Assembly: GCA_021199655.1 (NCBI GenBank)
Contig: JAJQHQ010000075.1
Location: 1 to 46,585, forward strand
Reading direction: 5' to 3'
From: Lachnospiraceae bacterium
GTDB taxonomy: Bacteria > Bacillota > Clostridia > Lachnospirales > Lachnospiraceae
Length of the DNA: 46,585 bases
In this document: piece after piece, positions 1-19,721 of the stretch
How positions within the stretch are numbered: the stretch's first letter is position 1
Layout: every line of letters starts with the position of its first letter
Position numbers and translations under genes: made by a program
The notes under the pieces: generated by a model
Told to the model about the DNA's origin: nothing
The model's input: only the letters and a program-made list of their open reading frames with translations
Databases searched by the model: none

Positions 1-55
1 CATTATAAGCGGGGAGTATCAGAACTACTATGAGAAGATGTACGCTAACCGGTAA
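1..55 (+). CDS. rmlB: dTDP-glucose 4,6-dehydratase, C-terminal end only
   Basis: The window opens inside a gene. The frame whose first full codon is at base 2 gives about 17 residues ending EKMYANR and stops with TAA at 53-55. This tail (SGEYQNYYEKMY) is what I recall for the C-terminus of RmlB/RfbB in Clostridia. RmlB converts dTDP-glucose to dTDP-4-keto-6-deoxyglucose, the step before RmlC and RmlD. The next gene, rmlD, begins 19 bases later, so the genes are very likely one operon. The call rests on a short tail plus the neighbours; the rest of the gene lies outside the window. Confidence 0.7.
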   Translation, partial: IISGEYQNYYEKMYANR

Positions 56-74
56 AGCAGGTAAGGAGAAAGTG

Positions 75-989
75 ATGAAAGTATTTGTAACAGGTGTCGG
101 AGGTCAGCTCGGACATGATGTGATGAATGAATTATATAAACGTGGCCATGAGGGTATTGGTTCCGATGTCGCAGAAAACTATTTCGGTGTTGCTGACGGT
201 TCTGCTGTGACCACGGCTCCTTATGTGTCTTTGGATATTACAGATGTCTCAGTTGTTGATAAGACAATCACTGAAGTCAATCCGGATGTGGTGATCCACT
301 GCGCTGCGTGGACAGCTGTGGACATGGCTGAAGATGATGACAAAGTTGAGAGGGTACGAGCAGTCAATGCTAACGGCACGAAGAATATCGCAGAGATCTG
401 CAAGAAGCTTGACTGCAAGATGGTTTATATCAGTACCGACTATGTGTTCGATGGGCAGGGAACAGAGCCATGGCAACCAGACTGCAAGGACTACAAACCG
501 CTCAATGTCTATGGTCAAACGAAACTTGAGGGCGAGCTTGCAGTTTCGTCAACACTGGATAAGTACTTCATTGTCCGCATTGCCTGGGTGTTTGGTCTTA
601 ACGGTAAGAACTTCATCAAGACGATGCTGAACGTCGGAAAGACGCACGACACAGTTCGAGTGGTCAATGATCAGATCGGGACACCGACCTATACATATGA
701 TTTGGCTAGATTGTTGGTCGATATGGTAGAGACTGAAAAGTATGGCTGTTATCACGCCACAAATGAGGGCGGGTACATCAGCTGGTATGACTTCACAAAA
801 GAAATTTATAGACAAGCTGGTTATACGACGGAAGTTATTCCTGTGACCACAGAGGAGTATGGGTTAAGCAAGGCCGCACGTCCATTCAACAGCCGATTAG
901 ATAAGAGCAAGCTGGTGGAAGCAGGATTTGAGCCTTTGCCCACTTGGCAGGATGCGGTGAGCAGGTATTTGAAAGAGATTGAGTATTGA
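75..989 (+). CDS. rmlD: dTDP-4-dehydrorhamnose reductase
   Basis: A 304-residue short-chain dehydrogenase-like protein that performs the last step of dTDP-L-rhamnose synthesis in the cytoplasm, reducing the 4-keto group of dTDP-4-keto-L-rhamnose. The N-terminus has the nucleotide-binding motif VTGVGGQLG. Further on are the family-typical STDYVFDG stretch and the YGQTKLEGE segment, which holds the catalytic Tyr-x-x-x-Lys. Length is normal for RmlD. The start at 75 is chosen because AAGGAG lies just upstream; an in-frame start at 30 has no such site and adds residues unlike the family. It lies between the rmlB end and rmlC, as in many rhamnose operons. Confidence 0.93.
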   Translation: MKVFVTGVGGQLGHDVMNELYKRGHEGIGSDVAENYFGVADGSAVTTAPYVSLDITDVSVVDKTITEVNPDVVIHCAAWTAVDMAEDDDKVERVRAVNANGTKNIAEICKKLDCKMVYISTDYVFDGQGTEPWQPDCKDYKPLNVYGQTKLEGELAVSSTLDKYFIVRIAWVFGLNGKNFIKTMLNVGKTHDTVRVVNDQIGTPTYTYDLARLLVDMVETEKYGCYHATNEGGYISWYDFTKEIYRQAGYTTEVIPVTTEEYGLSKAARPFNSRLDKSKLVEAGFEPLPTWQDAVSRYLKEIEY

Positions 990-1020
990 GAAAATTGCAA
1001 TAGATGAGGTGTGGAGAGTA

Positions 1021-1623
1021 ATGGGACAGATTAAAGTAACGAAGGCACCAATAGAGGGTTTGTATGTGATAGAGCCAACTGTTCACGGTGACAGCAGAGG
1101 CTATTTCGTGGAGACATATAACCAGAATGATATGCATGAAGCAGGACTGGATATGGTATTTGTCCAAGACAACCAGTCCATGTCAACCAAAGGTGTTCTG
1201 AGAGGATTGCACTTCCAGAAGCAGTACCCACAGGGCAAGCTGGTGCGTGTTATCAAGGGCAGCGTCTTTGATGTGGCTGTGGATTTGAGAAGCAACAGCA
1301 AGACATATGGTCAGTGGTATGGAGTAGAACTGAATGCTGAGAACATGAAGCAGTTCTATATATCAGAGGGATTTGCACACGGCTTTCTGGTTCTCTCTGA
1401 TGTTGCAGAGTTTTGCTACAAGTGTACAGATTTCTATCATCCCGGAGACGAAGGTGGCATGGCTTGGAATGACCCGGAGATAGGTATTGAATGGCCGGGT
1501 GTAGTTGGAAAGTATCAGGGAACAGCAAGTGCTGAAGGATATAGGTTAGAGAGTGGCGAGTGCCTGAATCTTAGCGATAAGGATCAGAAGTGGCTTGGAC
1601 TGAAGGATACATTTAAGTTTTAA
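1021..1623 (+). CDS. rmlC: dTDP-4-dehydrorhamnose 3,5-epimerase
   Basis: A 200-residue cupin epimerase that acts between RmlB and RmlD, turning dTDP-4-keto-6-deoxyglucose into dTDP-4-keto-L-rhamnose. Recognisable family segments are DSRGYFVETYN, GVLRGLHFQ (with the active-site His), VFDVAVDLR and SEGFAHGFLVLS. Start at 1021 is supported by GGAG seven bases upstream; an in-frame start at 979 overlaps the end of rmlD and adds atypical residues. The C-terminus is slightly longer than in minimal RmlC proteins (about 180-190 residues). A second, more distant cupin epimerase sits at 16793 in the CDP-sugar part of the cluster. Confidence 0.93.
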   Translation: MGQIKVTKAPIEGLYVIEPTVHGDSRGYFVETYNQNDMHEAGLDMVFVQDNQSMSTKGVLRGLHFQKQYPQGKLVRVIKGSVFDVAVDLRSNSKTYGQWYGVELNAENMKQFYISEGFAHGFLVLSDVAEFCYKCTDFYHPGDEGGMAWNDPEIGIEWPGVVGKYQGTASAEGYRLESGECLNLSDKDQKWLGLKDTFKF

Positions 1624-1640
1624 CAAGAATGGGGATAAAT

Positions 1641-2879
1641 ATGGCACAGGATGTTCAGCACGTCTTTTTGGTGGGCGCAAAGAGTCTTGGTGCTTATGGT
1701 GGATATGAGACATTCATTAATAAGCTAACCGAATATCACCAGAATAATGAGAAAATTAAATATCATGTGGCATGCAAAGCAAATGGGGACGGCAGCATGG
1801 ATCCAAGCAAGACAGATGGGGCTGCTATAGTTTCTGACCATGAATTTGTTTATCATAACGCAAACTGCATTCAGATACATATTCCCGAAATTTTGGGTCC
1901 GGCACAGGCGATTTACTATGACGTTGCGGCGTTGAGGGCATGTTGCGATTACATCAAGAAGAATAATATTCCACATCCTATAGTGTATATAATGGCATGC
2001 AGGATTGGTCCATTTATAGGTCACTATTACAAGAAAATTCATAAGCTAGGTGGACAGATTTTTCTAAATCCGGATGGACATGAATGGATGAGAGCAAAAT
2101 GGAGCAAGCCAGTTCGTAGGTATTGGAAATTGTCTGAACATAGAATGGTTAAGTACAGTGATCTTGCAGTTTGTGATTCCATAACGATTGAGAAATATAT
2201 ACATGAGAGTTATGACGGAAAGGGAATTAAAGGGCGAAATCCGAAAACGACGTTTATAGCTTACGGAGCTGAAACCAGAAAGAGCAAATTGTCCGATGAC
2301 GACCAAAAACTATTGGATTGGTATAAAGAAAAAGGATTATCGGCGAAAGGGTATTATCTTGTTGTCGGTAGGTTTGTTCCCGAAAATAATTATGAGACTA
2401 TGATACGCGAGTTCATGAAAAGCTCTTCAAAAAGAGATTTCGCTATTATAACTACACATAATGATGTGTTGCTAGAAAAGATTGAAGATGAATTTCATTT
2501 TAAATCAGATAAGCGGATAAAATTTGTAGGAACCGTATATGACGAAGAATTATTGATGAAGATCCGAGAAAATGCTTATGGGTATTTGCATGGACATGAG
2601 GTTGGAGGAACAAATCCAAGTCTGCTGGAAGCACTAGGAAGTACAGAATTAAATCTATTACTTGATGTTGGTTTTAATTCTGAGGTTGCTGACGATGGTG
2701 CTTTATATTGGAACAAGGAAGAGGGAAATCTAGCTTCATTGATTAATAAAGTTGATTCAATGCGTGAGAGCGAAATAGCGGTACTTGGACAGAAGGCACA
2801 TCAGAGGATTAGGCAGTTGTATAATTGGGAATACATATGTAATGAATATGAAGAGATATGGTTAGATGATAGTCAATGA
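1641..2879 (+). CDS. DUF1972-type glycosyltransferase, probably a rhamnosyltransferase
   Basis: A 412-residue GT4-like enzyme of the family carrying the N-terminal DUF1972 domain, which includes Cps2T/WchF beta-1,4-rhamnosyltransferases. The signature is near the N-terminus: VGAKSLGAYGGYETFINKL. A GT4 C-terminal domain follows, with VGRFVPENNYETMIREF and the donor-binding stretch HGHEVGGTNPSLLEALG. The position directly after rmlD and rmlC fits transfer of rhamnose onto the lipid-linked repeat unit at the inner membrane face. Start at 1641 has GGGGA upstream at a good distance; an in-frame ATG at 1629 is weaker. From this gene on the DNA becomes markedly AT-rich, the usual sign of a swapped serotype region. 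Confidence 0.82.
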   Translation: MAQDVQHVFLVGAKSLGAYGGYETFINKLTEYHQNNEKIKYHVACKANGDGSMDPSKTDGAAIVSDHEFVYHNANCIQIHIPEILGPAQAIYYDVAALRACCDYIKKNNIPHPIVYIMACRIGPFIGHYYKKIHKLGGQIFLNPDGHEWMRAKWSKPVRRYWKLSEHRMVKYSDLAVCDSITIEKYIHESYDGKGIKGRNPKTTFIAYGAETRKSKLSDDDQKLLDWYKEKGLSAKGYYLVVGRFVPENNYETMIREFMKSSSKRDFAIITTHNDVLLEKIEDEFHFKSDKRIKFVGTVYDEELLMKIRENAYGYLHGHEVGGTNPSLLEALGSTELNLLLDVGFNSEVADDGALYWNKEEGNLASLINKVDSMRESEIAVLGQKAHQRIRQLYNWEYICNEYEEIWLDDSQ

Positions 2880-2929
2880 GGAAGAGTAAGAATAACAATA
2901 ACAATAGCTGCGACATGAGGTGCTGATAC

Positions 2930-3600
2930 ATGAATATTATAAATTTGGCTAGGAGTACAGTAAAAACAATTTATATAAATTTAAGAATATTTCCTTTTTT
3001 TAAAGCTGTCCGCTTCCCTATAGTTGCTTCATATGATGTAATTTTTGAGGGCTGTAGAAAGAATTGTATTGAATTACTTGATGATACAGTCAAGTTTGCA
3101 TCTATTAAGGTGGGATTTTACGATGGAACAGGGCATATGGCAAAAGATAAGAACACAGTTATAAGTATTGATAGAAACTGTACCCTCAAAGTTGGCCATG
3201 ACGTTACAATTGCTAAAGGAAGTATTATCCGTATATCTTCGGGGGGGGTATTAGTATAGGGAATGGGTTTAAAGGCGGCCCTAATTTGCATATCTTTGCC
3301 CAAAAGAAAATAACAATTGAATCTGGATGCTTGGTTGGATGGAATGTAACTTTGATGGATAGAGATGGGCATAATATATATGATTTAAATGGTACTCATA
3401 TTAACCCCAATAATGATGTTTATATCGGGTCAAATGTGTGGCTTTGTTCATATTGTTCTATTTTAAAGGGAAGCAAGGTTGGAGAGAATTCAATCGTAGG
3501 ATATGGTGCTATAGTGTCCAATGATTTTAAAGAGGGGAATATAATTGTTGCTGGGATTCCAGCAAAATGTGTTAGAAGTAAAGTGAATTGGACTATATAA
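2930..3600 (+). CDS. Left-handed beta-helix (hexapeptide) acyltransferase, frameshifted at a run of eight G
   Basis: As written the frame from 2930 stops at 3259, just after a G8 run. The remainder, starting LHIFAQKKITIESGCLVG, continues in another frame to 3600. One more G (or two fewer) joins both into a single protein of about 223 residues. The joined protein has hexapeptide-type repeats and the typical acetyltransferase end GYGAIVSNDF...VAGIPAKCVRSK. Such enzymes usually add O-acetyl groups to sugars with acetyl-CoA in the cytoplasm. Most of the active region lies after the break, so the gene reads as OFF in this sequence. It could be a phase-variable gene, a true pseudogene or a sequencing error; the first is favoured by two similar breaks downstream. 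Confidence 0.75.
3241..3248 (+). repeat. Poly-G tract (G8) inside acyltransferase gene
   Basis: Eight consecutive G in a gene of about 33 percent GC. The downstream part of the gene is one base out of frame at exactly this point: G9 or G6 would restore it. Slippage at such runs is the classic basis of phase variation. Confidence 0.8.
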
Positions 3601-3771
3601 TAGCAAATTTCTTGATCCGCAATGAAAGGAGAACCAAATATAGGTGTCTACATCAAAAAGCAATAGACTATTATTCTAAAAAAATGAAACATTCCACATG
3701 ATAATACCACATATCAAAAGAGCTAATTTGCTGTAGATACTTTTTGATAATTATGTGTTAATGGAGGGAAT

Positions 3772-5043
3772 ATGGGTATATATATATCGGAAAAAACCAT
3801 ATATAAAGCGGTGATTTGGAGTTTCTTTTTAATGGAAACTATTACGTTGCAATTGTTTGGCGGAAGCTTTCGTATTTACTTTATTTTTTCACTTCTAACG
3901 ATATTTATATTGCTTCCAAATGTTAAATATCTTAATGGAAATATTATAATCGCAAGCGTAGCATACATCATGGCATTATTTATATCAACAATTTTTTCGG
4001 ATTCAGTAAGTGGCGCATTTACGAATACTTGTTCAAATATTTTATATATTTGTACAGCATATGCGATATGCTTAATGATGGTAGCAGGAATTTTTGAAGC
4101 TAATGAAATTCAAGAAACTCTGTGCAATATATTATTATTTATCATTATATTCGGATTGATACAATATATCATTTATTATACAACAGGGATTAGTCTATTG
4201 AAAGGAATATCAGAAGGACAAATATCAGGGGTAAGTAATGAGCCAAATGGACATGGAAAGATTGTGGGAATGGCTTTAGCTTTTTCATTTCCAGCATTAG
4301 TAAGGATGGAACCAGGAAGATGTAAGCAGAAATACAAGTTACTGTTTACCTTGTCGGCACTCACAATGATTATTTCGATTGCTCGAAATGTATTATATTC
4401 AATAATTGTGACAGCTATTATTATGTTTTGTTATTACATGCCCAAAAGAAATGTGAGAAACCAACTAATAAAGATATTATTCGTATGCGGAGTACTAGTA
4501 GGTGTTGCTGTATTTTTGATTAATTCCGGGGTTTTAAGGCTTGGTGAATGGAGTACTGAAAAGCTACAAAATCTGTTTATAACTAATATAGATGATGTGT
4601 TAGATGATGGTTCGGGTAGTTTCAGACTTCCAGCTCTTATGGCAAGCATAGATTCTTGGCTAGAATCAGTAAAGACCTTTTTAGTAGGACATGGGCCTGG
4701 ACAGGCATATGCATTAATTAATGGCTATTATTATACAAGGGTTGCAGGAAACGGCATTTTGGCCGGACTTCCTGGTACCGGTATAATTGGAGAAATACCT
4801 TATGTTGCAATGCTAATACTCCCCATAATTTATGCAAAAAAACTATCCAACATTTTAAATTTTATAGAATCAGATGCAAGTGATGTATCTTTCTCTGAAC
4901 AAGTAATGGCAATTGGAATTTATGTATTTGTGCTGGACTTTATTTCTAGTGCGTTTTATTTTGCAGTAATGTGGACTGTTGTTGCACTTGGTTTTTATTG
5001 TGAAACCGAATACAGGAGGATACTAAATTCCGAGATGGATTGA
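3772..5043 (+). CDS. O-antigen polymerase-like membrane protein (Wzy candidate)
   Basis: A 423-residue, very hydrophobic protein with about ten to twelve predicted membrane segments spread along its length. A larger loop around residues 270-320 includes DDVLDDGSGSFRLPALM and LVGHGPGQAY, the type of loop and GxGxG-like stretch seen in Wzy/O-antigen ligase (Wzy_C) proteins. It would polymerise the repeat unit on the outer face of the membrane. Sequence identity among Wzy proteins is low, so the call rests on topology, loop placement and context. GGAGGG precedes the ATG at 3772. It shares the cluster with one flippase (13484), giving one Wzx and one Wzy. Confidence 0.78.
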   Translation: MGIYISEKTIYKAVIWSFFLMETITLQLFGGSFRIYFIFSLLTIFILLPNVKYLNGNIIIASVAYIMALFISTIFSDSVSGAFTNTCSNILYICTAYAICLMMVAGIFEANEIQETLCNILLFIIIFGLIQYIIYYTTGISLLKGISEGQISGVSNEPNGHGKIVGMALAFSFPALVRMEPGRCKQKYKLLFTLSALTMIISIARNVLYSIIVTAIIMFCYYMPKRNVRNQLIKILFVCGVLVGVAVFLINSGVLRLGEWSTEKLQNLFITNIDDVLDDGSGSFRLPALMASIDSWLESVKTFLVGHGPGQAYALINGYYYTRVAGNGILAGLPGTGIIGEIPYVAMLILPIIYAKKLSNILNFIESDASDVSFSEQVMAIGIYVFVLDFISSAFYFAVMWTVVALGFYCETEYRRILNSEMD

Positions 5044-5055
5044 AAGGGTATGTTT

Positions 5056-5874
5056 ATGAAATTGGTAACAGTTTGTATATGCGTTTATAATGGCGAAAAA
5101 TATATAATTGAAACACTAGAAAGCATAACGAAACAAACATATAAAGATTTTGATTTGCTCATTGTGGATGATGCGTCAACGGATAATGGAATTAAAATTG
5201 CAGAAAAGTTTCTTGCTGAAAGAGCAGAATTCTCTTGGTCAATATATCATTTAAAAGAAAATGGGGGATTAGCACGGGCAAGAAGATTTGCGGAGGAACA
5301 TATCAATACAAAATATATTATGTTTTTTGACGCAGATGATATCATGCTTCCTAATATGTTAGAGAGACTTGTTTTTGAAATCAATGGCGATGACGATTTA
5401 ATTGCCGTAGGGTGTTACTTGGATTACATAGATGCAGAAGGAAAAAAATTAGTTGGGGGCCTTTATATTGGAGCCAAAACGAAAGAAGAGTTCTTTGAAA
5501 AAGCTAAAGCTGAAAAATTGATATTTATGCATCCAAGTACTATTTTTGATAGAGAAGCAGCACTTAGTGTCGGAGGGCGAAACGTATCAGGGTTTCCAGA
5601 AGGAAAGCCATACTATCAGGATATGTGTGAAGACTGCGATTTATGGACACGCATGTCTGATCTTTATATTAATGGAAAAGCTATGATAGTTATTCCAGAA
5701 GTCCTTGCATATTATAGAAAAATGGATAATACCATGTCGACAAACACAAGAGCGATGAAGTTAAGGATGTTGCATATAAAAAGAAATCTGAAACTACGAC
5801 GTCAAGGAAAGCCGGAGATCGCATTTATAAATTTTGAAAATACACTGTCAAAAAAAGGAAAACAGGAGGCTTAA
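5056..5874 (+). CDS. Glycosyltransferase family 2
   Basis: A GT-A fold glycosyltransferase. The N-terminus reads MKLVTVCICVYNGEKYI, then LLIVDDASTD (nucleotide binding), and the metal-binding FFDADD follows near residue 95. MCEDCDLWTRM near residue 190 matches the usual ED-containing acceptor region. ATG at 5056 is preferred over 5050 because AAAGGG ends only one base before 5050. The frame ends at 5874 right after a run of seven A. The next frame continues with sequence that resembles the normal C-terminal tail of such enzymes up to 6049, so this protein is probably 58 residues too short. The catalytic domain is complete, so activity may survive. Confidence 0.85.
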   Translation: MKLVTVCICVYNGEKYIIETLESITKQTYKDFDLLIVDDASTDNGIKIAEKFLAERAEFSWSIYHLKENGGLARARRFAEEHINTKYIMFFDADDIMLPNMLERLVFEINGDDDLIAVGCYLDYIDAEGKKLVGGLYIGAKTKEEFFEKAKAEKLIFMHPSTIFDREAALSVGGRNVSGFPEGKPYYQDMCEDCDLWTRMSDLYINGKAMIVIPEVLAYYRKMDNTMSTNTRAMKLRMLHIKRNLKLRRQGKPEIAFINFENTLSKKGKQEA

Positions 5875-6049
5875 CCACGAATGTAAAGCAACAGATGCGT
5901 TTCGTAAATTTGGTTTTTCTATGGTTAGAAAGGAATATTTACGCGGCGTGTTTTGGCTGACTACTGCTTTTGTATCATCTCCAAAGTATGTTACAGACAA
6001 AATAAAACCTTTATGTTCTAAGCTGTTCCAAATGGGGGGGACAAAATGA
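5857..6049 (+). pseudogene. Displaced C-terminal tail of the GT2 enzyme, after a shift at A7
   Basis: In the frame one base later, right after the A run at 5850-5856, a tail of about 60 residues reads FRKFGFSMVRKEYLRGVFW and SSPKYVTDKIKP. This is typical of the basic, hydrophobic C-termini of GT2 polysaccharide enzymes. With six A instead of seven, it would be continuous with the gene at 5056. There is no good start site of its own. Its TGA overlaps the ATG of the next gene (ATGA at 6046-6049), which also suggests it is the true end of the upstream gene. Confidence 0.6.
6034..6040 (+). repeat. Poly-G tract (G7) at the junction of GT2 tail and next gene
   Basis: Seven G end five bases before the ATG at 6046, so the run also occupies the Shine-Dalgarno position for that gene. 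One extra G would open the GT2 tail frame directly into the downstream gene and give a fusion. Tract length could therefore tune both termination upstream and initiation downstream. Confidence 0.65.
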
Positions 6050-7326
6050 GCTTTTTAAAAGATGTATTTTCAATGTTAAACTCTAATTATAATTACGCTG
6101 TACTCCGTAATTGGGAGGGGTTACCAGATCGTTGTAGCAGCAGGGATATAGATATTATATTAGATAGAAAGAGTTACAAATGTGTCGAAAAAGATATTAT
6201 CGAGATCGCTAAGAAGAATACCATGATGTTGATTCAGAGGTTTAAAAGCGAAAGATTTAACACGTTGATATTTGCGAATGCAAAAAGACATGAAATTATA
6301 CAATTAGACTTTTTCTTTCATTGTTCTTTCCATGGAATTATACTAATGGACACTCAAACAATGCTTCAGGAGAGAATTATTGAAGATGAAATTTATCATG
6401 TTGACAAAGCTGTGGAATTTCTTGACAAATTTTTATTTAATATCTCTTGCGGTGAGCAATACCCTGAAAAGTATTGCAAGGTTAAAGAAGAAGCCAAAAC
6501 AAACGAACGAGTTAAAAAAATTCTATTTGAAGTATTCGGCTGTGATAATATTGAAACAATTGAAAGCGAAAAAACTTATAGTTTACGAAAAAAAGCCAAT
6601 GCGCATAGTGTACATGTAAGTTTAATCAATCATGTTGGAAATAAAATTAGATTTTTCGGTACAAATCTGAAAAACTGGATATTTCCACAGGGTATATCAG
6701 TAGGCTTTACTGGCGCAGATGGTGTTGGTAAAACAACAATTCTAAACTTACTTGTTGATGAGTTAGAGACAACATTTTCATCTGTAGATGTATTTCATTT
6801 CAGACCTTCTGTTTTTGCAAATTTGGGGGATGCACTTCATGATGTGGGTTTAAAAAAAGAGGTAGATCATGACTATAATAGACCTCATCGTGGAGGAAAG
6901 ACAAATGTGATCAGTTCTTTATTTAGACTATTATATTATATTGCAGACTATATAATAGGATATTTCAGAAAAATAAGACATCTTATATATAGAAGACATG
7001 TAGTTATTTTTGATCGTTATTACACGGATATAATTACTGATAGTGAACGCAGTAAAATTTTTTTGCCCATAAAGTTTTTAAAAGCTATGCGTATTTTTGT
7101 ACCAAAGCTTCGGTATAACTTCCTGATTACTGCAGATGAAAATAGAATTATTATGAGAAAACAGGAACTTGAAATTGAAGAAATAGATAAAATACAGGCA
7201 AATATTTCGAAGGTAGGAGAATTAAACGGCTATTATCTGATAAATAATAACGGGAGTGCAGAAGAAGCACTCGAAGAGGTACTTGGTATAATATACTCTG
7301 GACAAAACAGTAGGTATTTGAGGTGA
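6046..7326 (+). CDS. Two-domain protein: nucleotidyltransferase-like plus thymidylate-kinase-like P-loop
   Basis: A 426-residue protein. Residues 1-200 look like a nucleotidyltransferase-fold domain: YAVLRNWEGLPDR, then SRDIDIILD, an acidic pair in a position that often binds metal. Residues 215-420 are thymidylate-kinase-like: GFTGADGVGKTT (Walker A, around residues 220-231), then DRYYTDIITD near residue 323, similar to the DRY motif of TMP kinases. Proteins with a TMP-kinase-like domain are known from capsule and exopolysaccharide loci. Here a role in phosphorylating or activating a sugar or polyol is inferred, not shown. It starts at a TGA/ATG overlap preceded by the G7 run. Confidence 0.65.
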   Translation: MSFLKDVFSMLNSNYNYAVLRNWEGLPDRCSSRDIDIILDRKSYKCVEKDIIEIAKKNTMMLIQRFKSERFNTLIFANAKRHEIIQLDFFFHCSFHGIILMDTQTMLQERIIEDEIYHVDKAVEFLDKFLFNISCGEQYPEKYCKVKEEAKTNERVKKILFEVFGCDNIETIESEKTYSLRKKANAHSVHVSLINHVGNKIRFFGTNLKNWIFPQGISVGFTGADGVGKTTILNLLVDELETTFSSVDVFHFRPSVFANLGDALHDVGLKKEVDHDYNRPHRGGKTNVISSLFRLLYYIADYIIGYFRKIRHLIYRRHVVIFDRYYTDIITDSERSKIFLPIKFLKAMRIFVPKLRYNFLITADENRIIMRKQELEIEEIDKIQANISKVGELNGYYLINNNGSAEEALEEVLGIIYSGQNSRYLR

Positions 7327-7336
7327 TTAGTAGGGT

Positions 7337-8581
7337 ATGGAAAAATTAAAAATATTTGTATCTGCATATGCATGTGAACCAGGGAAAGGTTCTGAAATAG
7401 GTGTAGGCTGGCATTGGGTACTCGAGATGAGCAAGTATTTTGAACTTTGGGTATTAACCCGTGCAAACAATCAGATTCCTATTGATAATTATTTCGAAGA
7501 TTATCCCAGTAACAAGGACAATATACATTGGATATATTTCGATTGCCCTGATTATATTAGACGATTTAAGCATCAGATGAAAGGCGTGAGATTTTACTAC
7601 ACGCTATGGGAGCTTATGTCGGATAATATTGTAAAAAAAACTATGGCCGGAAACAATATAGAGATTTTTCATTTGCTAACATATGGAAATTCAATTTGGT
7701 ACGTGAGTAAGCATGGGCAAAGAAAATTTTTTATTTGGGGACCAACTGGAGGTGTAGACACAATCCCGCGAGATTTCTCTAAGCACTACGGATTTAAACA
7801 GAGATGTATAGAGGAAATTCGAAGAGTAATTGTAAGTTCGTTACGGCTCGCTCCGGGATTCTATAACAAATGTAAAAATGCTAATCTAATCTTTTGTAAA
7901 TCACAGTCGATGAAGGATATAATACCAAAACGGCACCAATATAAAGCAGAGATATTCACAGATGTTGCAGTTGATCTGTCACCGGTTGAGACTCAAAATC
8001 ATAAAAGCTATAGCAAAAAAATCATGTTCATCACAGTTGGACGACTAGATGGCTGGCGGGGGTTTGACTTGATTATTGAGTCATTTTCCCAATTGGCTAT
8101 TAACAATCCAAAGATAGAACTGAAGATTATTGGCGATGGAGCGGAACGCAAACATTTAAAAAGACTTATTTCTGATGCGGGAATGGATAGGCAAATTATA
8201 ATGACTGGCCAAGTATCAATGGATGAGTATAATAACGCCATGAAAGAGTGTGATGTCGTTGTCAATGCATGTCTTAAAGAGGGAGGGGTAACAAACGCCT
8301 TTGATTGTATGGCATGGGGAAAACCATTAATCTGTATTGATACAGGTGGATATACAAGAAATTTCGACTCGGAGTGCGCAATCATCATAGAAAAGAGTTC
8401 GAGAATAGAGACAATCAAAAAACTTCGAGACTCAATGCAGAAAGTTCTTGATTATGATTTAAGAAACAAAATGAGTGAAGCTATGCATAAACGTGCCAAT
8501 GAGATAACTTGGGAGAAAAAAGGAAAGTTGATTCGTGACAGGATTGAAGATGCTTGGACGAACAGGAGCGAAGATAAGTAA
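7337..8581 (+). CDS. Glycosyltransferase family 4 (GT-B fold)
   Basis: A 414-residue retaining glycosyltransferase. The N-terminus has SAYACEPGKGSEIGVGWHW, a glycine-rich acceptor-side loop seen in this group of GT4 enzymes. The C-terminal domain starts at IMFITVGRLDGWRGFDLI and has KIIGDGAERKHLKRL and the donor-binding region VNACLKEGGVTNAFDCMAWG, with a Glu-containing E(x7)E-like arrangement. It acts on the cytoplasmic membrane face on the lipid-linked repeat. It starts ten bases after the preceding gene and ends two bases before the next, so it is translationally embedded in the operon. Donor sugar and linkage cannot be read from sequence. Confidence 0.85.
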   Translation: MEKLKIFVSAYACEPGKGSEIGVGWHWVLEMSKYFELWVLTRANNQIPIDNYFEDYPSNKDNIHWIYFDCPDYIRRFKHQMKGVRFYYTLWELMSDNIVKKTMAGNNIEIFHLLTYGNSIWYVSKHGQRKFFIWGPTGGVDTIPRDFSKHYGFKQRCIEEIRRVIVSSLRLAPGFYNKCKNANLIFCKSQSMKDIIPKRHQYKAEIFTDVAVDLSPVETQNHKSYSKKIMFITVGRLDGWRGFDLIIESFSQLAINNPKIELKIIGDGAERKHLKRLISDAGMDRQIIMTGQVSMDEYNNAMKECDVVVNACLKEGGVTNAFDCMAWGKPLICIDTGGYTRNFDSECAIIIEKSSRIETIKKLRDSMQKVLDYDLRNKMSEAMHKRANEITWEKKGKLIRDRIEDAWTNRSEDK

Positions 8582-8583
8582 AT

Positions 8584-9678
8584 ATGAATAGCATTGTAAA
8601 GAAATCATGCTCAAGGTCAAAGACTTGTTATGTTACATTTAGTAATCATGATGGAAAACAGTGGAGCATTCCACAAGCAGACTCTGGTATTGCGTTGGAG
8701 ATATATGAGCCGTCTGGCATAAAAGGGAAAATTTTGAAAAGTTTTTTTCCTGTAATGAGTAAAAGCAAAAGCTTAATTGCATTTATAAATGGCCAGTATA
8801 CATCTATTAACGTATCTTCAGAGATGAGCGCAATATTGGAATCATTTTATGGAAGAGAGTTTTGCGTTTCGATTTTCTGGGGGACTCCTTGTGTAGATCA
8901 GAAGATAACTGTGCAAATCTATAAAGCGGAAACAATTCTTGGCTATTGCAAAATTGGTTTCACGGAAAATGTATTCAATTTATTCAAAAATGAAAAGACA
9001 ATATTAGATTATTTGAATAAGAAGATGGTGAAGAATGTACCTCAGTGCCTCGCTTTGAATGAACTACAAGATGGAGCACGCATGTTTGTCCAAACAACAC
9101 AGAAGAAGAGTGGAGCGAAAGTTGATCATAGGTTCGGAACACGGCAAAAGTGTTTTTTGAAAATGCTGTTTGCATGTACAAAACAAAAGCTACACTACGA
9201 AGAAAGCGATTTTTCAAGGTCACTTATATTCTTGAAAAATAACATATATCTATTGCAGCCAAAGTACAGGAATATAATTTTAGACATGATAGATAGTATC
9301 AATGGAAGGCTTGCAAATACCATTGTAGAATGGGGAGTTTGCCATAGAGATTTTACTCCGTGGAACACATGCAATATAAACTCGGAGCTGTTTGTATTTG
9401 ATTTTGAGTATGCGTATAAAACAGGACCATATGGAATTGACCGATGGCATTTTTACGTTCAAAGCTTATATTTTGAAAAGAAATATAGTATTAGACAGAT
9501 TGCAAACCATTTCATGAGACATTTTTCAGATGAACAAAATGACAATGAATTTAAACAATATTTATTAGACATAATTTCGTTGTATATCCAACGAGGAACG
9601 GCAGAAGATATAAACTTTGCAAATGAAAGGGCAGAGTTGCTGTTTCTTACTTTTATAGATGGGAGTACAAATAAATGA
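8584..9678 (+). CDS. Aminoglycoside-phosphotransferase/choline-kinase-like protein
   Basis: A 364-residue protein with a protein-kinase-like fold at the C-terminus. VCHRDFTPWNTC (about residues 252-263) matches the catalytic loop HxDxxxxN, and VFDFEYA (about 273) matches the metal-binding D(F/W)E motif of APH/choline kinase enzymes. The N-terminal 150 residues are less recognisable. In a polysaccharide locus this could phosphorylate a sugar, a polyol or a choline-like group; this is inference. It overlaps the next gene by four bases (ATGA at 9675-9678), which suggests coupled translation. It is one of three kinase or nucleotidyltransferase-like proteins in the cluster (also 6046 and 19722). 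Confidence 0.72.
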   Translation: MNSIVKKSCSRSKTCYVTFSNHDGKQWSIPQADSGIALEIYEPSGIKGKILKSFFPVMSKSKSLIAFINGQYTSINVSSEMSAILESFYGREFCVSIFWGTPCVDQKITVQIYKAETILGYCKIGFTENVFNLFKNEKTILDYLNKKMVKNVPQCLALNELQDGARMFVQTTQKKSGAKVDHRFGTRQKCFLKMLFACTKQKLHYEESDFSRSLIFLKNNIYLLQPKYRNIILDMIDSINGRLANTIVEWGVCHRDFTPWNTCNINSELFVFDFEYAYKTGPYGIDRWHFYVQSLYFEKKYSIRQIANHFMRHFSDEQNDNEFKQYLLDIISLYIQRGTAEDINFANERAELLFLTFIDGSTNK

Positions 9679-10823
9679 AGGTTTTGGCGTTCTATTTACC
9701 ACAGTATCATGAAATTCCAGAGAATAATCAATGGTGGGGGAAAGGGTTTACTGAATGGACAAATGTGAAAAAAGCAAAACCTATGGCTTTAAATCACTAC
9801 CAGCCAAGAGTTCCTTTAAATAATAATTACTATTGTTTGCTTGACAAAGGAAATACAACATTTCATTGGCAGGTGGATTTGGCAAGAAAATATGGTGTAT
9901 ATGGTTTTTGTATGTATCACTATTGGTTTAATGGACATCTTTTACTTGAAAAGCCAATGGAGAAATGGCTAAAAGATAAAACGATACATTTCCCATTTTG
10001 CGTATGCTGGGCAAATGAAAAGTGGACAAATGGATGGGTCTCGAGTGAAAACCGCGTGTTGATAGACCATGATTTTTCAGATTATGATGACTGGGTGAAC
10101 CATTTTAATTATCTTTTACCATTCTTCATGGATGAAAGATACATTCGAGTAGATGAGAAACCACTTGTGGGTCTTTATGTTCCGGATCTGATGGGTAAAT
10201 ATTTGGAGCCTTTTATCAAATGCTGGAGGGAATTGGCATTAGAGAATGGATTACCAGGGCTTACATTTTTCTACCAAAGTGTAAAATCATACATGACTCC
10301 AGGATTTCAAAAACAGTTATTTGATTATGGGGTAGAGTTTCAACCGGGCTTTACAAGATATGGTCCTGCTGCTGGCGAAAAAAAAGCTGGAGATGTTATA
10401 AATGACAGTCTTGTCAAGGTATCACATTTCCTGCAAAAGCATTTACATATTTATTTGCACTGTAAGAGGAAGCAGGCAGAAACATTGTCGTATGATGACA
10501 TGTGGAACAAAGTATTACAGGATGGACCATACGAAAGCAATATGTTCCCAGGGGCTTTTGTTGACTGGGACAATACCTGTCGAAAACATGAATCAGGTAG
10601 CTATTTTACAGAAGCTACACCTGAAAAATTCGAAAAATACATGACAAAACAGATTCAGAGGGCTAGGGATATCTATAAAAAGGAATATCTTTTCTTATTT
10701 GCTTGGAATGAGTGGGGTGAGTGTGGGTATATGGAGCCGGATTCGAAGTTTGCCTATGGGTACCTTGAGGCATTAAAAAAGGCGCTTGAGGCGAACAACG
10801 AATTCCCAGAATGGGAGGTCTAG
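9675..10823 (+). CDS. WbsX-like glycosyltransferase (GH99-like fold)
   Basis: A 382-residue protein of the WbsX family, found in O-antigen and capsule clusters. The N-terminus is diagnostic: [19 protein letters not shown] followed by [13 protein letters not shown]. Family-typical [21 protein letters not shown] and the late [17 protein letters not shown] are all present, and length is normal. The family is related to endo-alpha-mannosidase GH99 enzymes, and its exact reaction is poorly known; it may cleave or transfer sugars. Translation is coupled to the upstream kinase-like gene. The downstream acyltransferase begins two bases after its stop. Confidence 0.88.
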
Positions 10824-10824
10824 A

Positions 10825-11458
10825 ATGGGCTTACGATATGACATTACAATTAGAATAAAACAAGAGATTCTTAATAATAAATGGAGAAAGAGAAACCAAC
10901 ATAATTTCACAACAATAAAAACCATATTTCCAATAGATAAAGTAACTGTTGGAAAAGGAACGTATGGTTCTTTGGATATAGAGTTATATGAAGAGAAATC
11001 CAATACATATGTTGAAATTGGAAATTTTTGTTCTATAGCCAGAAATGTTAGATTTATAGCGGATGGAGGCCACAATATTAGCAATGCAAGCAGTTATCCA
11101 TTTAAAGTAAGATATCTTTCTGAAAAGTCTGAAGCTATTGCAAAAGGACCTATTATCGTTGGTGATGATGTATGGATTGGAGAGAGTTCCATAATACTTT
11201 CAGGTGTTACTATCGGACAAGGAGCTGTCATTGCGGCCGGGAGTGTTGTTACAAAAGATGTCCCCCCCATATGCTGTTTATGGCGGTGGTCGTATTCTAA
11301 AATATCGGTTTAATCAAAATATAATCGAGAAGATGGTTATGTTTAATTATTCTGCCCTAACAGATACAGATATTGCGACATCTGCGAAAGTGTTTTATAT
11401 GCCACCTGAGGATTTTATAAAAACAGACTTTTATAATGAACATTTAAGAGGAGAATGA
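10825..11458 (+). CDS. CatB-like hexapeptide acetyltransferase, frameshifted at a run of seven C
   Basis: The frame from 10825 (GGGAGG upstream) encodes a CatB/xenobiotic acetyltransferase-like beta-helix: [20 protein letters not shown], then [20 protein letters not shown] and VVTKDVPP. The C7 run at 11262-11268 then throws it out of frame to a stop at 11313. In the frame restored by one fewer C, the normal end follows: [14 protein letters not shown] up to 11458. In CatB enzymes this final part (GxPAK/YGGNPAK-like and the C-terminal helix) closes the trimer, so the version read here is probably inactive. It is the second of three acyltransferases broken at a G/C run. Confidence 0.82.
11262..11268 (+). 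repeat. Poly-C tract (C7) inside acetyltransferase gene
   Basis: Seven C in an AT-rich gene. C6 (or C9) would join the two halves of the acetyltransferase exactly at the conserved proline pair before YAVYGG. Confidence 0.8.
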
Positions 11459-11461
11459 CAG

Positions 11462-12465
11462 ATGGATACCAAAAACTATGATGCTGTAGATATTTCAAAA
11501 TTAATACTTAGCCTTATGGTTGTTGCTTTGCATACTTCTTTTCTTGAAGGCTTTGCTAATCCTATACTAAGATTAGCTGTACCGATTTTTTTCATTTATT
11601 CAGGTTTCTTTTTCTTTTATAAAGATAGCCAAGTTAATGAAGAGAACAAGCCCTTAAAAAAACTGGTTGTACGAAATGTAAAATTATATGCAGCTTGGTT
11701 TCTTGTCTTGCTTTTGCCAACGAATTACCTCAAGAGTTATTTTGACTCTGTGGGGGGGTGAAAGTAACTCTATTACTTAAGGATTTTTTTCTGGGTTCGA
11801 CATGGCCTACTTCATGGTATATTATGGCGACAGTCATAGGGATTATTGCTATCAGATTTCTAAATAAGTATCTGAATGATGCCATTATTTTTGCCGTTGC
11901 ATTACTATTTTATTTGATTTGCCTGTTTTCAACAAATTATAGTTTTATGGTTGAAGAAGGGGGTGCTGTAAAAAAGCTGATTGATCTTTTGGGGGCACCG
12001 CAGAATAATTTTTGCGTAAGTTTGATTTGGCTTATGTGCGGGAAAACGGTAGCAAAATATAGACTACATGAAAAGTGGAAAACTAGAAGCATACTAATTG
12101 GTTTGACAGTTGCATTGTCATTATTACTTATAGAACACTTTGAGCTAAAAATATTTGGAGTTTGGTCCGATACGCTAAATGACTGTTATATTTTCTCTGT
12201 TCCTGTGGCATTTTTAATTGCTATATCTATTCTGTCACGAAATGATGTGATCAAGAATGGAATGCTTTTGAGAAGGATGAGTACCGTTATTTATTGCTCG
12301 CATTTCTTTATTGCAATTTTTGTGAAAAAATTAGTACTTATTCTCCAAGTACCAAATCTCCTAAACTGTACGGTGTATTTTATAACTGTAATAATTTGTG
12401 TTGTGTTAGCTTATACCGTTGTATATGTTGGAAAATATATTAAGGTTTTACGGCTTTTATACTGA
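11462..12465 (+). CDS. Acyltransferase family 3 membrane protein, frameshifted at a run of seven G
   Basis: From 11462 (AGGAG upstream) the protein begins YDAVDISKLILSLMVVALH, matching the N-terminus of integral membrane acyltransferases (Acyltransferase_3, OafA/WecH type), including the membrane-embedded His. After TM segments such as LRLAVPIFFIYSGFFFF, the frame hits a TGA at 11759-11761 directly after G7. With G8 (or G5) it continues with KVTLLLKDFFLGSTWPTSWY and about eight more membrane segments to 12465, giving about 334 residues, a normal family length. These proteins move acyl groups, often acetyl, across the membrane onto polysaccharide. As read, the protein is cut to about 99 residues and should be inactive. 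Confidence 0.82.
11752..11758 (+). repeat. Poly-G tract (G7) inside membrane acyltransferase gene
   Basis: Seven G followed at once by TGA. G8 or G5 restores one long membrane protein. It is the third acyltransferase in the cluster interrupted at a G/C run of seven or eight. Confidence 0.8.
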
Positions 12466-12509
12466 AGATTTGATGGTTTAATGTTTATAACTTGTAGAGG
12501 TGATTAATT

Positions 12510-13484
12510 ATGTCGGAGATAATCCTATCGATTACGATACCTACATTTAATAGATGCAATGAACTAAAGAAAAACTTGGCTGCAATTTATCCGCAGATTC
12601 AAAATAGGAATGTCGAGCTTATTGTTTCAGATAATGCATCTACTGACGGAACAGAAGAATATATGAAAGATTTTACAAGAGAACACCCTGAGGTTAGATA
12701 CTATAGAAACAACAATAATCTTGGATTTGATGGAAATTTCATGAAATGCTTTCAATATGCAAGTGGAAAATATATTTATATTTTAGGAGATGATGATTAT
12801 TTACAACCAGGGGCTGTTGAAAGCATCATCGAGGGTTTAAGGCTTGATCCTATTGTTCTTTTTATAAATCGCGATAAGATTGGCAAGAAGGCAGAGAAGA
12901 AAAGCATTCGGTCTGAAATGTTACCTGATTGCAATTATATTATCAAAGATAAAAATATCGCACTAAAAGAAGTAGGGGTTAATATCACATTTATTTCCAC
13001 ATTAATTATCAGAAATGAGTTCATTGAGGATTACACAAACTTAGAGAACTACTTTGGCTCATATTTTATTTTTGCTTACGGAGTATTTCAAACCATGAAC
13101 AGAGAAGGGATATATGTTATTAACACTTTTGACTGTATTCACCCTTCTGCCAATGATAAAGTATCATATGATTTGTATTATGTTTGGTTTGAAAGCTATC
13201 GCAAATTGCTTTTTGAAGGTGGTAAGTTAGGCGGAATTAATGAATCAACTATTGTTGAAGTATATCGTACTTCTCTAAAAAAATCCTTATTTTGGTTTGT
13301 ATGTCATTTTCGAAATTCATGCGATAATGCTTATACGTGGAATGAAAGTTATTTGCGTAAAAATGTAAAACAATTCAAAGATATATATTGGGTGTATTTT
13401 CTTTTATTAAAATGTCCGAAACCGTTCCTTAAGGTCTACTACCAACTTGGGAGGGTCTATTTCCGGTTTTTATGTAGAAAGTGA
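12510..13484 (+). CDS. Glycosyltransferase family 2
   Basis: A 324-residue GT-A enzyme. Visible motifs are LSITIPTFNRCNELKKNL at the start, LIVSDNASTDGTEEYM (nucleotide binding) and YILGDDDYLQPGAVE, the DxD-type metal site near residue 93. The last 100 residues are basic and aromatic, as expected for membrane-attached GT2 enzymes of surface polysaccharide loci. AGAGGTGA precedes the ATG at 12510. Its TGA overlaps the flippase start (TGATG at 13482-13486). The sugar transferred cannot be told. Confidence 0.87.
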   Translation: MSEIILSITIPTFNRCNELKKNLAAIYPQIQNRNVELIVSDNASTDGTEEYMKDFTREHPEVRYYRNNNNLGFDGNFMKCFQYASGKYIYILGDDDYLQPGAVESIIEGLRLDPIVLFINRDKIGKKAEKKSIRSEMLPDCNYIIKDKNIALKEVGVNITFISTLIIRNEFIEDYTNLENYFGSYFIFAYGVFQTMNREGIYVINTFDCIHPSANDKVSYDLYYVWFESYRKLLFEGGKLGGINESTIVEVYRTSLKKSLFWFVCHFRNSCDNAYTWNESYLRKNVKQFKDIYWVYFLLLKCPKPFLKVYYQLGRVYFRFLCRK

Positions 13485-14941
13485 TGATGACAATGCGTGC
13501 AGGTATAAAAAAGAACACTATATACAATATGATTAAAACGTTTTCTCAAGTAATTTTCCCGCTGATTACGTTCCCATATATTACAAGAACGTTGCTTGCA
13601 GAAAATGTTGGTAAAATTAATTTTGGATCTTCGATAGTAAGCTATTTTTCACTTATGGCGAGTCTGGGTATTTCAACTTACGCAATTAGAGAGTGCTCGA
13701 AAAGGAGAGAAAACAAGGAAGAACTATCTAATATTGCTAGCCAGCTATTTAGCATCAATATGATCATGACTTTTTGCTCATATACTTTGCTTGGAATTAC
13801 GCTTCTTTTTGCAAAACCCCTACAAGATTATCGGTTACTGATTAGCATCCAAAGTTTATCTATCGTATGTACAACACTTGGAGCAGATTGGTTAAATTCT
13901 GCTATGGAGGATTTTAAATATATATCTATAAGAACAATGATTTTTCAAATATTTTCGTTAGCTTTAATGTTTCTTTTTGTCCGTGAAACTGGCGACTATT
14001 ATAAATATGCGGGAATTGTTGTCCTTTCCTCTGGTGGAGCAAGCTTAGTTAATATTTTTTATAGGAGAAAATTCTGCAAAATTAGATTTACAACGCATGT
14101 CCATTTTATGGCGCATGTGAAATCTATTGTTACAATGTTTGTCTTGCTTTTGTCCCAAAATATTTTCCTCAGTTCTGATCAAACTATTTTAGGTTTATTT
14201 TGTGGAGATGTAGAAGTCGGATTATATAGTACTGCTGTTAAAATTTATAATATAGTTAACACGGTTATTGCTTCCATTGCTTACGTTGTTATGCCCAAGA
14301 TGTCTAATCTTTTCGCAAAAAAAGAATACGAAGAAATTAATAAACTTTATCTATATTCTGGACAATTTATTATCATTTTGGGTTTACCATGTATTTTTGG
14401 CTTAAACCTTTTAAGCTATGAAATTATATACATTATTGGAGGGGTAGAATTTCTTGGAGCTGTTCCAGTGCTTAGAATACTCTCTGTATCTTTGATATTA
14501 ATGTTTATTACTGGACTGATCGGTAACATTATTTTGCTTCCTTCAGGAAATGAAAAGTATTTTTTGTATGGTTGCGTAGTTGCAGCAGTTATCAACATTA
14601 TTACAAATATTATTTTTATCCCTCGTTTTGGAAGTATTGCGGCTGCTTGTACTACATTGGTTTCACATTTTGTTGTTATGGCTATTTCTGCATTTTTTGC
14701 TGATAAAAATGCCAAAATATTCTCATTTGCGAGATTTTTGCCTGACGCTTTAAGTGGCTGTGTAATTATGAGCATTGCAGTTCTATTAATTAGTTGTATT
14801 ATTGACAATATATATATACGTACATTTGTAGCTGTTTTTATTGGCGCTGTTATTTATTTTATAGTTTTGTTTTTTAGAAAGAATAGCCTTGTTTGCGATG
14901 CATTTTATTCTGTTTATAATAAAATTAAAGGGAGAAAGTAG
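13484..14941 (+). CDS. wzx: Oligosaccharide flippase (Wzx)
   Basis: A membrane protein of about 485 residues with around twelve to fourteen hydrophobic segments, of the polysaccharide_synt/MATE-like flippase family. The N-terminus is typical: KKNTIYNMIKTFSQVIFPLI followed by TFPYITRTLLAENVGKINFG, very common in RfbX/Wzx of Firmicutes. SSDQTILGLFCGDVEVGLYS is also characteristic. It would turn the finished lipid-linked repeat unit across the membrane for the polymerase at 3772. Several start codons lie close together (GTG 13481, ATG 13484, 13487, 13493); I chose the ATG overlapping the upstream stop. The gene ends one base before rfbF. Confidence 0.9.
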   Translation: MMTMRAGIKKNTIYNMIKTFSQVIFPLITFPYITRTLLAENVGKINFGSSIVSYFSLMASLGISTYAIRECSKRRENKEELSNIASQLFSINMIMTFCSYTLLGITLLFAKPLQDYRLLISIQSLSIVCTTLGADWLNSAMEDFKYISIRTMIFQIFSLALMFLFVRETGDYYKYAGIVVLSSGGASLVNIFYRRKFCKIRFTTHVHFMAHVKSIVTMFVLLLSQNIFLSSDQTILGLFCGDVEVGLYSTAVKIYNIVNTVIASIAYVVMPKMSNLFAKKEYEEINKLYLYSGQFIIILGLPCIFGLNLLSYEIIYIIGGVEFLGAVPVLRILSVSLILMFITGLIGNIILLPSGNEKYFLYGCVVAAVINIITNIIFIPRFGSIAAACTTLVSHFVVMAISAFFADKNAKIFSFARFLPDALSGCVIMSIAVLLISCIIDNIYIRTFVAVFIGAVIYFIVLFFRKNSLVCDAFYSVYNKIKGRK

Positions 14942-15724
14942 ATGAAAGTCGTAATTTTAGCTGGTGGCTTTGGAACGAGGATTTCTGAGGAGTCGCATTT
15001 AAAGCCCAAGCCAATGATAGAAATCGGTGGCAAACCAATCATGTGGCATATTATGAAGGAATACTCCTACTATGGATTCAATGAATTTATCATTTGTGCT
15101 GGGTATAAACAGGAAGTTATCAAGGAGTGGTTCTCTGATTATTTCCTACACAACAGCGATATAACTTTCGATTTCACCAGCGGTAAGAATGACATGATTG
15201 TCCATAATCAGCACTGTGAGTCCTGGAAAGTATCAGTTGTGGACACAGGACTTAATACCATGACTGGTGGTCGAATCAAAAGAATACAGCCGTATGTGAA
15301 TAACGAGACCTTCATGATGACATATGGTGATGGAGTGTCGGATGTAGATATTGACAAGTTGCTCGAATTTCATAGAAAAAAAGGAAAAATTGCAACAATC
15401 ACATCGGTTATGTTTGAGCAAACAAAGGGGTACCTGGATTTGTCCGATGAAGACGATGTTCGGGCATTCCGTGAAAAAAGCCGGTCGGATGGAGCAAGAA
15501 TAAATGGTGGATATATGGTATTGGAGCCAGCCATCTTTGAATATATAGATGGAGATTCAACTGTGTTTGAAAAAGAACCGTTGGAGACTCTTGCTGCCCA
15601 AGGGGAACTGTGCGCATACAGACATGATGGATACTGGCAGTTTATGGATACTAAGAGAGAGATGGAAAAGTTAGAATCACTCTTGGCTTCGAATAAGGCT
15701 CCTTGGAAAAAATGGGAGGATTGA
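14942..15724 (+). CDS. rfbF: Glucose-1-phosphate cytidylyltransferase
   Basis: A 260-residue nucleotidyltransferase that makes CDP-glucose from CTP and glucose-1-phosphate. The N-terminus has the pyrophosphorylase motif VILAGGFGTRISEES followed by KPKPMIEIGGKPIMWHIM. TYGDGVSDVDIDKL carries the metal-binding Asp, and NGGYMVLEPAIFEYI and GYWQFMDTKREMEKL are highly typical of RfbF/DdhA. Length is normal. It begins right after the flippase stop and is followed by rfbG, so the pair supplies CDP-4-keto-6-deoxyglucose. GC content is higher here than in the preceding 13 kb, a sign of mosaic origin. Confidence 0.95.
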   Translation: MKVVILAGGFGTRISEESHLKPKPMIEIGGKPIMWHIMKEYSYYGFNEFIICAGYKQEVIKEWFSDYFLHNSDITFDFTSGKNDMIVHNQHCESWKVSVVDTGLNTMTGGRIKRIQPYVNNETFMMTYGDGVSDVDIDKLLEFHRKKGKIATITSVMFEQTKGYLDLSDEDDVRAFREKSRSDGARINGGYMVLEPAIFEYIDGDSTVFEKEPLETLAAQGELCAYRHDGYWQFMDTKREMEKLESLLASNKAPWKKWED

Positions 15725-15727
15725 TTT

Positions 15728-16780: not shown

Positions 16781-16792
16781 GAGGTGAATGCT

Positions 16793-17377
16793 GTGGCATT
16801 CGAGTTTAAAGAGACTGAGATAAAAGGTTTGATGATTATAAAACCCCATATGTATCCTGATGACAGGGGTCTATACAAGAAGGGGTATGAAAAGAATATA
16901 TTTGCTGAAAACGGCATCACTTGTGAATTTACAGAGAGTAGTGATCTCTATTCAAAAAAAGGTGCGCTCCGTGGATTGCATTATCAGACAGAAGAATCAC
17001 AGGCAAAACTTATACATGTTATTTCCGGCATTCTTTATGATGTTGCGGTTGATTTGAGAGAAGGCTCTGAGACTTTCGGAAAGTATCATGCGGAGTTGCT
17101 TAAAGCAGAAGAAAATGCCATGGAGTTTATTCCAGAAGGTTTCGCACATGGATTTATTTCTCTTACAGATGATACAGTATTCTCTTATATGTGTTCGGGA
17201 AGATATATCCCAGAAGCCTGTGGCGGTATCCGCTGGAATGATCCGGGATTAGCAATTTCTTGGCCGCTTGAAGAGTACGGAGTCACAAAAGTAATAGCAA
17301 CAGATAAGGATATGAATTGGCCAACGCTTGAGGAGTATATCAAAAAACCGAAAATAAAGCGGTGCGCGTTGCCTTAA
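16793..17377 (+). CDS. RmlC-like nucleotide-sugar epimerase, probably CDP-linked
   Basis: A cupin epimerase of about 194 residues, related to RmlC but distant from the rmlC at 1021. Motifs are YPDDRGLYKKGYEKN, GALRGLHYQTEESQAKL with the active-site His, LYDVAVDLREGS and IPEGFAHGFISLTD. GTG at 16793 is preferred as the start, because GGAGG lies eight to nine bases upstream, whereas the in-frame GTG at 16784 lies inside that site. Placed between rfbG and a reductase, it probably inverts C3 and/or C5 of CDP-4-keto-6-deoxyglucose. A role with dTDP substrate cannot be excluded from sequence alone. Confidence 0.82.
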   Translation: MAFEFKETEIKGLMIIKPHMYPDDRGLYKKGYEKNIFAENGITCEFTESSDLYSKKGALRGLHYQTEESQAKLIHVISGILYDVAVDLREGSETFGKYHAELLKAEENAMEFIPEGFAHGFISLTDDTVFSYMCSGRYIPEACGGIRWNDPGLAISWPLEEYGVTKVIATDKDMNWPTLEEYIKKPKIKRCALP

Positions 17378-17392
17378 AGAGGTGGGGAGAGT

Positions 17393-19714: not shown

Positions 19715-19721
19715 AGAAAAA

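Follow-up and report, generated by a model that had tools for sequence, protein, structure and literature searches.

Slippage at homopolymeric tracts in glycan-modifying genes is a classical mechanism, of a kind that is already known. In Neisseria meningitidis, homopolymeric tracts of at least 7 are the site of variation in pilin glycosylation, and a table of paired carriage isolates gives phase variation at 41% for the O-acetyltransferase gene pglI (PMC5445459). Likewise, in Campylobacter jejuni a homopolymeric tract has been described in the flagellin-glycan modification gene Cj1295 (PMC3068675), and both 8 and 9 G have been seen in cgtB (PMC6437147). Here we consider a stretch of 46,585 nucleotides (the window; contig JAJQHQ010000075.1) from the assembly of an uncultured gut Lachnospiraceae bacterium (3.98 Mb in 110 contigs, 98.6% complete), in which a surface-polysaccharide biosynthesis cluster (30..20906) carries three acyltransferase genes that are each split at a run of G or C. 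The best explanation, which we hold with a little more than even confidence, is slipped-strand phase variation of surface-glycan acylation as part of a genus-wide poly-G repertoire, in which the G8 and G7 runs would be contingency tracts, and the C7 run less surely so.

The cluster and the features described within it lie on the forward strand. The first gene (2930..3600) encodes a hexapeptide (left-handed beta-helix) acyltransferase and consists of an open reading frame at 2930-3259 and a continuation in another frame that stops at 3600, with the frame change at G8 (3241..3248). The second, for a CatB-like (hexapeptide) acyltransferase (10825..11458), has its first piece at 10825-11313 and its second in another frame, which stops at 11458, with the frame change at C7 (11262..11268). 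The third, for a membrane Acyltransferase_3 protein (11462..12465), falls into 11462-11761 and 11758-12465, with the frame change at G7 (11752..11758). In all three the frames are open on either side of the run and the phase shifts at the run. Each split pair constitutes one gene, because both pieces match the same intact homologue in consecutive order, and the claim of the first-pass annotation that each of these three runs interrupts a single acyltransferase is thereby confirmed. The pieces of the 2930 gene align to residues 13-104 and 104-218 of L203 (220 residues), which is the sole match of the 5' piece (28% identity); the pieces of 162 and 86 residues from the 10825 gene align to residues 1-147 and 138-205 of P0008 (209 residues); and those of the 11462 gene align to residues about 1-98 and 102-337 of the Acyltransferase_3 proteins P0002, P0003 and P0004. 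Moreover, the Acyl_transf_3 profile (PF01757) is matched over positions 2-89 in one piece and 112-325 in the other, both above the curated cut-off, and Hexapep (PF00132) is matched in one piece each of the 2930 and 10825 genes, which have homologues of matching length. By family the three genes are thus rightly called acyltransferases. Acetyl transfer to polysaccharide and action at the surface are predicted from the family together with the neighbourhood in a polysaccharide cluster, and it is to this extent that the earlier assignment of one kind of function to all three holds.

There are both likenesses to the described systems and differences from them. As with pglI, an O-acetyltransferase of a surface glycan would be affected (the function here being predicted), but pglI belongs to a Gram-negative host and its variation was observed between isolates, as tabulated in that source, whereas variation in the window is predicted from the sequence (PMC5445459). 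Cj1295 and cgtB have in common with the genes studied here a tract in a glycan-modifying gene, and they are switched ON or OFF by one-base slippage, as the window genes would be, but they encode other enzymes in another phylum, and the sources describe variation demonstrated within a culture (PMC3068675, PMC6437147).

Together with a further G7 run (6034-6040), the runs at 3241-3248, 11262-11268 and 11752-11758 are all the G/C runs of at least seven in the window and, as had been noticed earlier, they lie in its A+T-rich part: the 2-kb bins with runs have a G+C content of 33-36%, the window as a whole 43%. The four span 8.5 kb. In 1000 dinucleotide shuffles of the interval 2930-12465, G/C runs of this length numbered 0.33 on average and 3 at most, none of the shuffles giving 4. 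The assembly contains 35 distinct G/C runs of at least seven, counted from 100 of 102 match rows so that one or two runs may be absent. One of them, a G52 run (G000:C105:11479-11530), stops exactly at a contig end and is probably a base-calling artefact, which leaves 34 internal runs: 20 of seven, 10 of eight, 2 of nine and 2 of ten. A rough extrapolation from shorter runs, resting on one (0.157) of two unequal ratios (the other being 0.088), predicts about 18, 2.9, 0.4 and 0.07 for these lengths. Runs of at least eight are in excess genome-wide (14 versus about 3.4 expected) and sevens are ordinary (20 versus about 18), and the oddity of the two gene-splitting sevens is their location, not their number. 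In fact, 4 of the 34 runs sit in 0.24% of the genome, where an even spread would place 0.08 in 2930-12465; the nominal P of 2e-6 is too small, because the interval was chosen after the fact. A background of 400 kb was picked once the run positions were known, and the absence of G/C runs of at least seven there is no independent count. The earlier judgement that chance is a poor explanation is supported by the shuffles (at most 3 versus 4), but it is qualified by the ordinary number of sevens and by the conserved proline codons that underlie the C7 run.

The comparison with related genomes extends the pattern well beyond the window. Runs of at least nine G were found in 41 of 47 genomes of the genus, this genome counted, some of the listed runs being contig-end artefacts (G000 C105, G061 C172). 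The clearest case is a family of large secreted proteins, for which a 431-base query around the tract site returned 20 loci in 13 genomes. In 14 of these, from 10 genomes, a run of G5 to G9 stands directly before the hydrophobic core of the signal peptide (L207-L223), the signal peptide having been read from the sequence; no run was found in the remaining six, with L219 left unresolved. Lying 30-36 bases upstream of the tract, the start codon is in frame in 8 loci and out of frame in 6, and genome G062 has two copies, one in frame and one out of frame. In L220 a T follows seven G. 'Adhesin' was considered as a name for the tract-bearing secreted proteins and dropped as only a guess, the one scanned (L088) matching no Pfam or NCBIfam family. 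Since the site and its surroundings are conserved and the phase differs, error in a single assembly and simple decay both fail as explanations of the signal-peptide tract.

A leucine-rich-repeat protein kinase gene provides a second series. In the genome under study it is split at a C8 run, with the Pfam match beginning at position 70, and in two sisters the same site has C7 and C6 with the frames open. A second tract, G9 and G10, stands just before the kinase gene start in L228/L044 (G012) and L229/L267 (G013). The secreted-protein family and the kinase are the cases in which a tract is kept at the same site with differing length; no close orthologue was found for the window genes. The comparison of tract lengths among relatives that the first-pass annotation had called for thus succeeded for these two, but not for the window genes, the distant homologues examined being without the G runs.

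An error of sequencing or assembly in homopolymers could produce split genes of this kind, in a draft of 110 contigs in which the G52 run at a contig end resembles a base-calling artefact. We nevertheless regard this as very improbable, because a series of tract lengths across species cannot come from the error of one assembly. Moreover, all four A8 runs of the window sit within long open frames, and the truncated 162-residue protein of the 10825 gene occurs on two contigs of at most 16,959 bases, hence other than the contig of the window, though they may come from the same sample.

In Neisseria, expression of porA and fetA is switched by homopolymers in the promoter spacer. The genus examined here shares with these the presence of a G tract between -35/-10-like hexamers, as a sequence pattern alone, in 5 of 51 distinct tracts of at least nine G, whereas shuffling of the flanks gave a mean of 0.7 and reached 5 in none of 1000 trials (tracts less than about 60 bases from the end of a locus were excluded from the count, as were duplicates and locus L275). 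The loci with G9 between promoter-like hexamers are L076:3058 and L258, L041, L050 and L059; in L041 the tract stands before a Wzz gene. A G9 run in such a spacer upstream of a DUF6591 gene has the same length in a sister. For a Gram-positive precedent one may look to the Pil1 locus of Streptococcus gallolyticus, where leader repeats control pilus expression. Here, too, expression of a surface-protein locus would be set by a repeat close to its start, but Pil1 has a short multi-base repeat, in contrast to the poly-G within the signal peptide.

Other tract-bearing genes of the genus broaden the picture. Two Acyltransferase_3 genes of sister species (L051 in G032 and L264 in G060) are intact, with an in-frame G9 and a full-length domain; they are two of 30 proteins from tract loci that were hand-picked, not drawn at random. 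Further genes with or near runs of at least nine G encode a pyruvyl transferase, a UDP-glucose dehydrogenase, LPXTG pilins, a polysaccharide deacetylase and a phosphatidylglycerol lysyltransferase. Because of the same-site tract series, the promoter-spacer tracts and the in-frame G9 in Acyltransferase_3 genes, slippage at poly-G/C is supported as a probable mechanism in this genus. The proposal of phase variation made at first pass therefore finds support at the level of the genus, and for the three named genes it would apply by extension: reversible slippage of their tracts, the target of acyl transfer and any benefit are predictions. A wider proposal, towards which we are undecided with a slight leaning against, is that the whole genus of gut Lachnospiraceae has a poly-G phasome like that of Campylobacter but in a Gram-positive setting, and that switching is faster in lineages lacking MutS-MutL, of which this may be one. 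Its targets, proposed with the same reserve, would be acyltransferase and pilin frames, signal peptides, promoter spacers (one of them before Wzz) and the surroundings of start codons.

Within the genome itself, frames are split at 11 of the 34 G/C runs when 50 residues are required on each side, the four of the window included. With 60 residues on each side, 6 of the 30 runs outside the window split frames, whereas 4.9% of 20000 random positions do so (P about 0.003). The six include genes for a pilin-like protein, an LtaS-like sulfatase and a protein kinase; that of the sulfatase, L079, was flagged on the wrong strand, its real split having escaped the rule because of a 37-codon overlap of the frames. 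With 100 residues the figures are 5 of 34 versus 1.5%, and of the four in the window only G8 passes. The L079 gene (L079:3067) encodes an LtaS-like sulfatase split by a G10 run, the Pfam match of its second piece beginning at profile position 79. It was considered as a conserved switch and rejected, since 11 orthologue sites carry G runs of 2-5 only; a G9 occurs in one of 15 orthologue loci, from a second species, where it lies elsewhere in the gene and in frame (L271:2001 / L125:3228), and G runs of at least seven are absent from the other 14. Two proteins are suggestive of run-split genes: in a pilin-like protein FctA is matched before the run and SpaA after it, and in a SpaA protein the LPATG-containing end is in another frame. 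Other runs are in frame (for example L074, with a PGA_cap domain, and L091), and that of L084 lies just ahead of a start codon.

A fourth split gene in the cluster differs from the acyltransferase genes in the kind of run. The gene for a family 2 glycosyltransferase (5050..5874) encodes 274 residues, compared with 322-328 in its five best homologues (e.g. P0128-P0132), and the missing tail is found in another frame (5831-6046), where a stretch of 55 residues is 60% identical to the C-terminal end of P0128. An A7 run (5850..5856) lies at or beside the frame change. The G7 run at 6034..6040 falls in the last codons of this tail frame, just 5' of the start codon of the next gene (6046..7326), which is unsplit and has a weak Thymidylate_kin match. 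Unlike those at 3241, 11262 and 11752, the run at 6034 is outside the interior of any split gene, and it could tune translation of the gene that starts at 6046.

The four split genes within 9.5 kb invite the explanation that the glycan cluster was acquired recently and is in decay, the acyltransferases being plain pseudogenes, permanently off. The low G+C content of the cluster agrees with this, and so does the narrow distribution of the Acyltransferase_3 piece, which has no match in 35 other genomes of the genus and, in 24 genomes of the order, three matches at 23-25% identity (best E-value 4.7e-9). Against 5.8 billion proteins it gave 6 matches, the best being its own fragment, with no intact near-identical copy. 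The CatB-like piece gave 3328 matches, the best 120 of which contain no intact copy above 74% identity, and among 200 genomes none but its own was matched at an E-value of 1e-40; a scan of viral contigs with a CatB-like homologue revealed no relative. The 3' piece of the 2930 gene has matches in 10 other genomes among the 200, at 35-44% identity. Yet all four breaks occur at homopolymer runs of at least seven, the frames are otherwise open over the length of the homologues, and unsplit genes stand between the split ones, so that we consider plain decay improbable.

Several observations weigh against phase variation of the three acyltransferases. Tracts of 7 are short for switches, and one assembly provides one tract length per window gene. 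The C7 run encodes part of a Pro-Pro pair that 19 of 22 examined homologues share; the C-richness at 11262 is therefore partly a coding constraint, and the break could be a one-off slip. Near the G7 site, 4 Acyltransferase_3 homologues have neither a glycine pair nor a G run, and near the roughly placed G8 site 5 distant homologues of the 2930 gene have no G run, which suggests that the G tracts at 3241 and 11752 arose in this lineage. Similarly, the longest G run at the site of the LtaS-like G10 is 2-5 in the 11 of 37 loci where a motif located it, and that tract is accordingly young. Runs of at least nine G also occur in or at genes with no evident surface role (a GerE regulator, GH32, a DEAD helicase, YjeF and a HAD hydrolase). 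Furthermore, frameshifts extend beyond G/C runs, as A7 breaks the glycosyltransferase and T8 breaks a LacI-type regulator (L110:9863). A/T runs were flagged as breaks, with 60 residues on each side, in 14 of 145 cases at length 7, 3 of 23 at 8 and 1 of 4 at 9 (random positions, 4.9%), and another count flagged 18 of 177; of five flagged pairs run through Pfam, one was real (the LacI case) and four were without any family.

Finally, the assembly has no match to MutL and none to MutS1 above the cut-off, despite being 98.6% complete; only MutS2 and another MutS-like protein are found in place of MutS1 (loci L287, L288). The first-pass annotation had missed this absence, the A7 break and the Pro-Pro constraint, all of which strengthen hypermutation or decay as rival explanations. 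Specifically, MutS1-MutL may have been lost in the lineage, so that slippage at homopolymers goes uncorrected and the acyltransferases were broken as collateral damage, not selected as switches. The MutL model is present in 14 of 14 control genomes (in 11 above the cut-off), in 43 of 47 genomes of the genus and in 194 of 200 of the family, and among 25 genomes of the genus that are at least 90% complete and at most 5% contaminated this one alone is without a match (24 of 25 match). If mismatch repair has indeed been lost, homopolymer slippage would be faster in general, and the breaks at A7 and T8 would fit. On the other hand, in a sister (L292) mutS and mutL lie side by side together with miaA, so that one deletion or one assembly gap would remove both mutS and mutL; miaA and mutS1 were not found in the at most 16% of the genome examined for them, which says little on deletion versus gap. 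Moreover, MutL is matched in every one of the nine further genomes in which the signal-peptide tract occurs, hypermutation leaves the clustering of G/C runs in an A+T-rich glycan locus unexplained, and A/T runs have a lower rate of confirmed splits (at least 2 of 177, where of the 18 flagged 5 were tested by Pfam and 1 more by homologues) than G/C runs, for which at least 5 of 34 are supported by homologues or a split domain. On balance we judge collateral breakage unlikely, if far from negligible, and hypermutation and phase variation can both hold.

The surroundings of the split genes are in line with the predicted role at the cell surface. By Pfam, the annotated subset of the cluster comprises RmlD, a DUF1972 glycosyltransferase, glycosyltransferases of families 2 and 1, WbsX and a Polysacc_synt flippase, along with an NTP transferase, a dTDP-sugar isomerase, epimerases and others. 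A scan of the window with Rfam gave 0 matches at the gathering score. Near the low-G+C glycan cluster, the region 28001-40000 of the window is G+C-rich (53-58% in 2-kb bins) and contains genes for DUF2800, a family A DNA polymerase, DUF932 and an SNF2-helicase; to judge from these, it looks like an integrated phage or other mobile element.

Under slipped-strand phase variation, the gain or loss of one base in a run at replication would change the reading phase, and a cell line would make either a full acyltransferase or a stub, leaving its polysaccharide acylated or not. With three independent tracts, one cluster could give up to eight surface states, and the cells of one population would bear differently acylated surface polysaccharide. 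Other targets of the repertoire as a whole would be further surface enzymes, the signal peptides of secreted proteins, the spacers of promoters and the regions around start codons. The proposed benefit is escape from recognition by phage, antibody or lectin.

Phase variation in gut commensals is mostly discussed for DNA inversions. In the open-access literature, searched by title or start of the abstract, no paper on homopolymer phase variation in Lachnospiraceae was found, and it is the genus-wide repertoire that is the part worth following. If the proposal is true, common gut Firmicutes also diversify their surface glycans and secreted proteins by slippage, which would bear on phage resistance, on immune recognition and on the way in which 'broken' surface genes in metagenome assemblies are treated.

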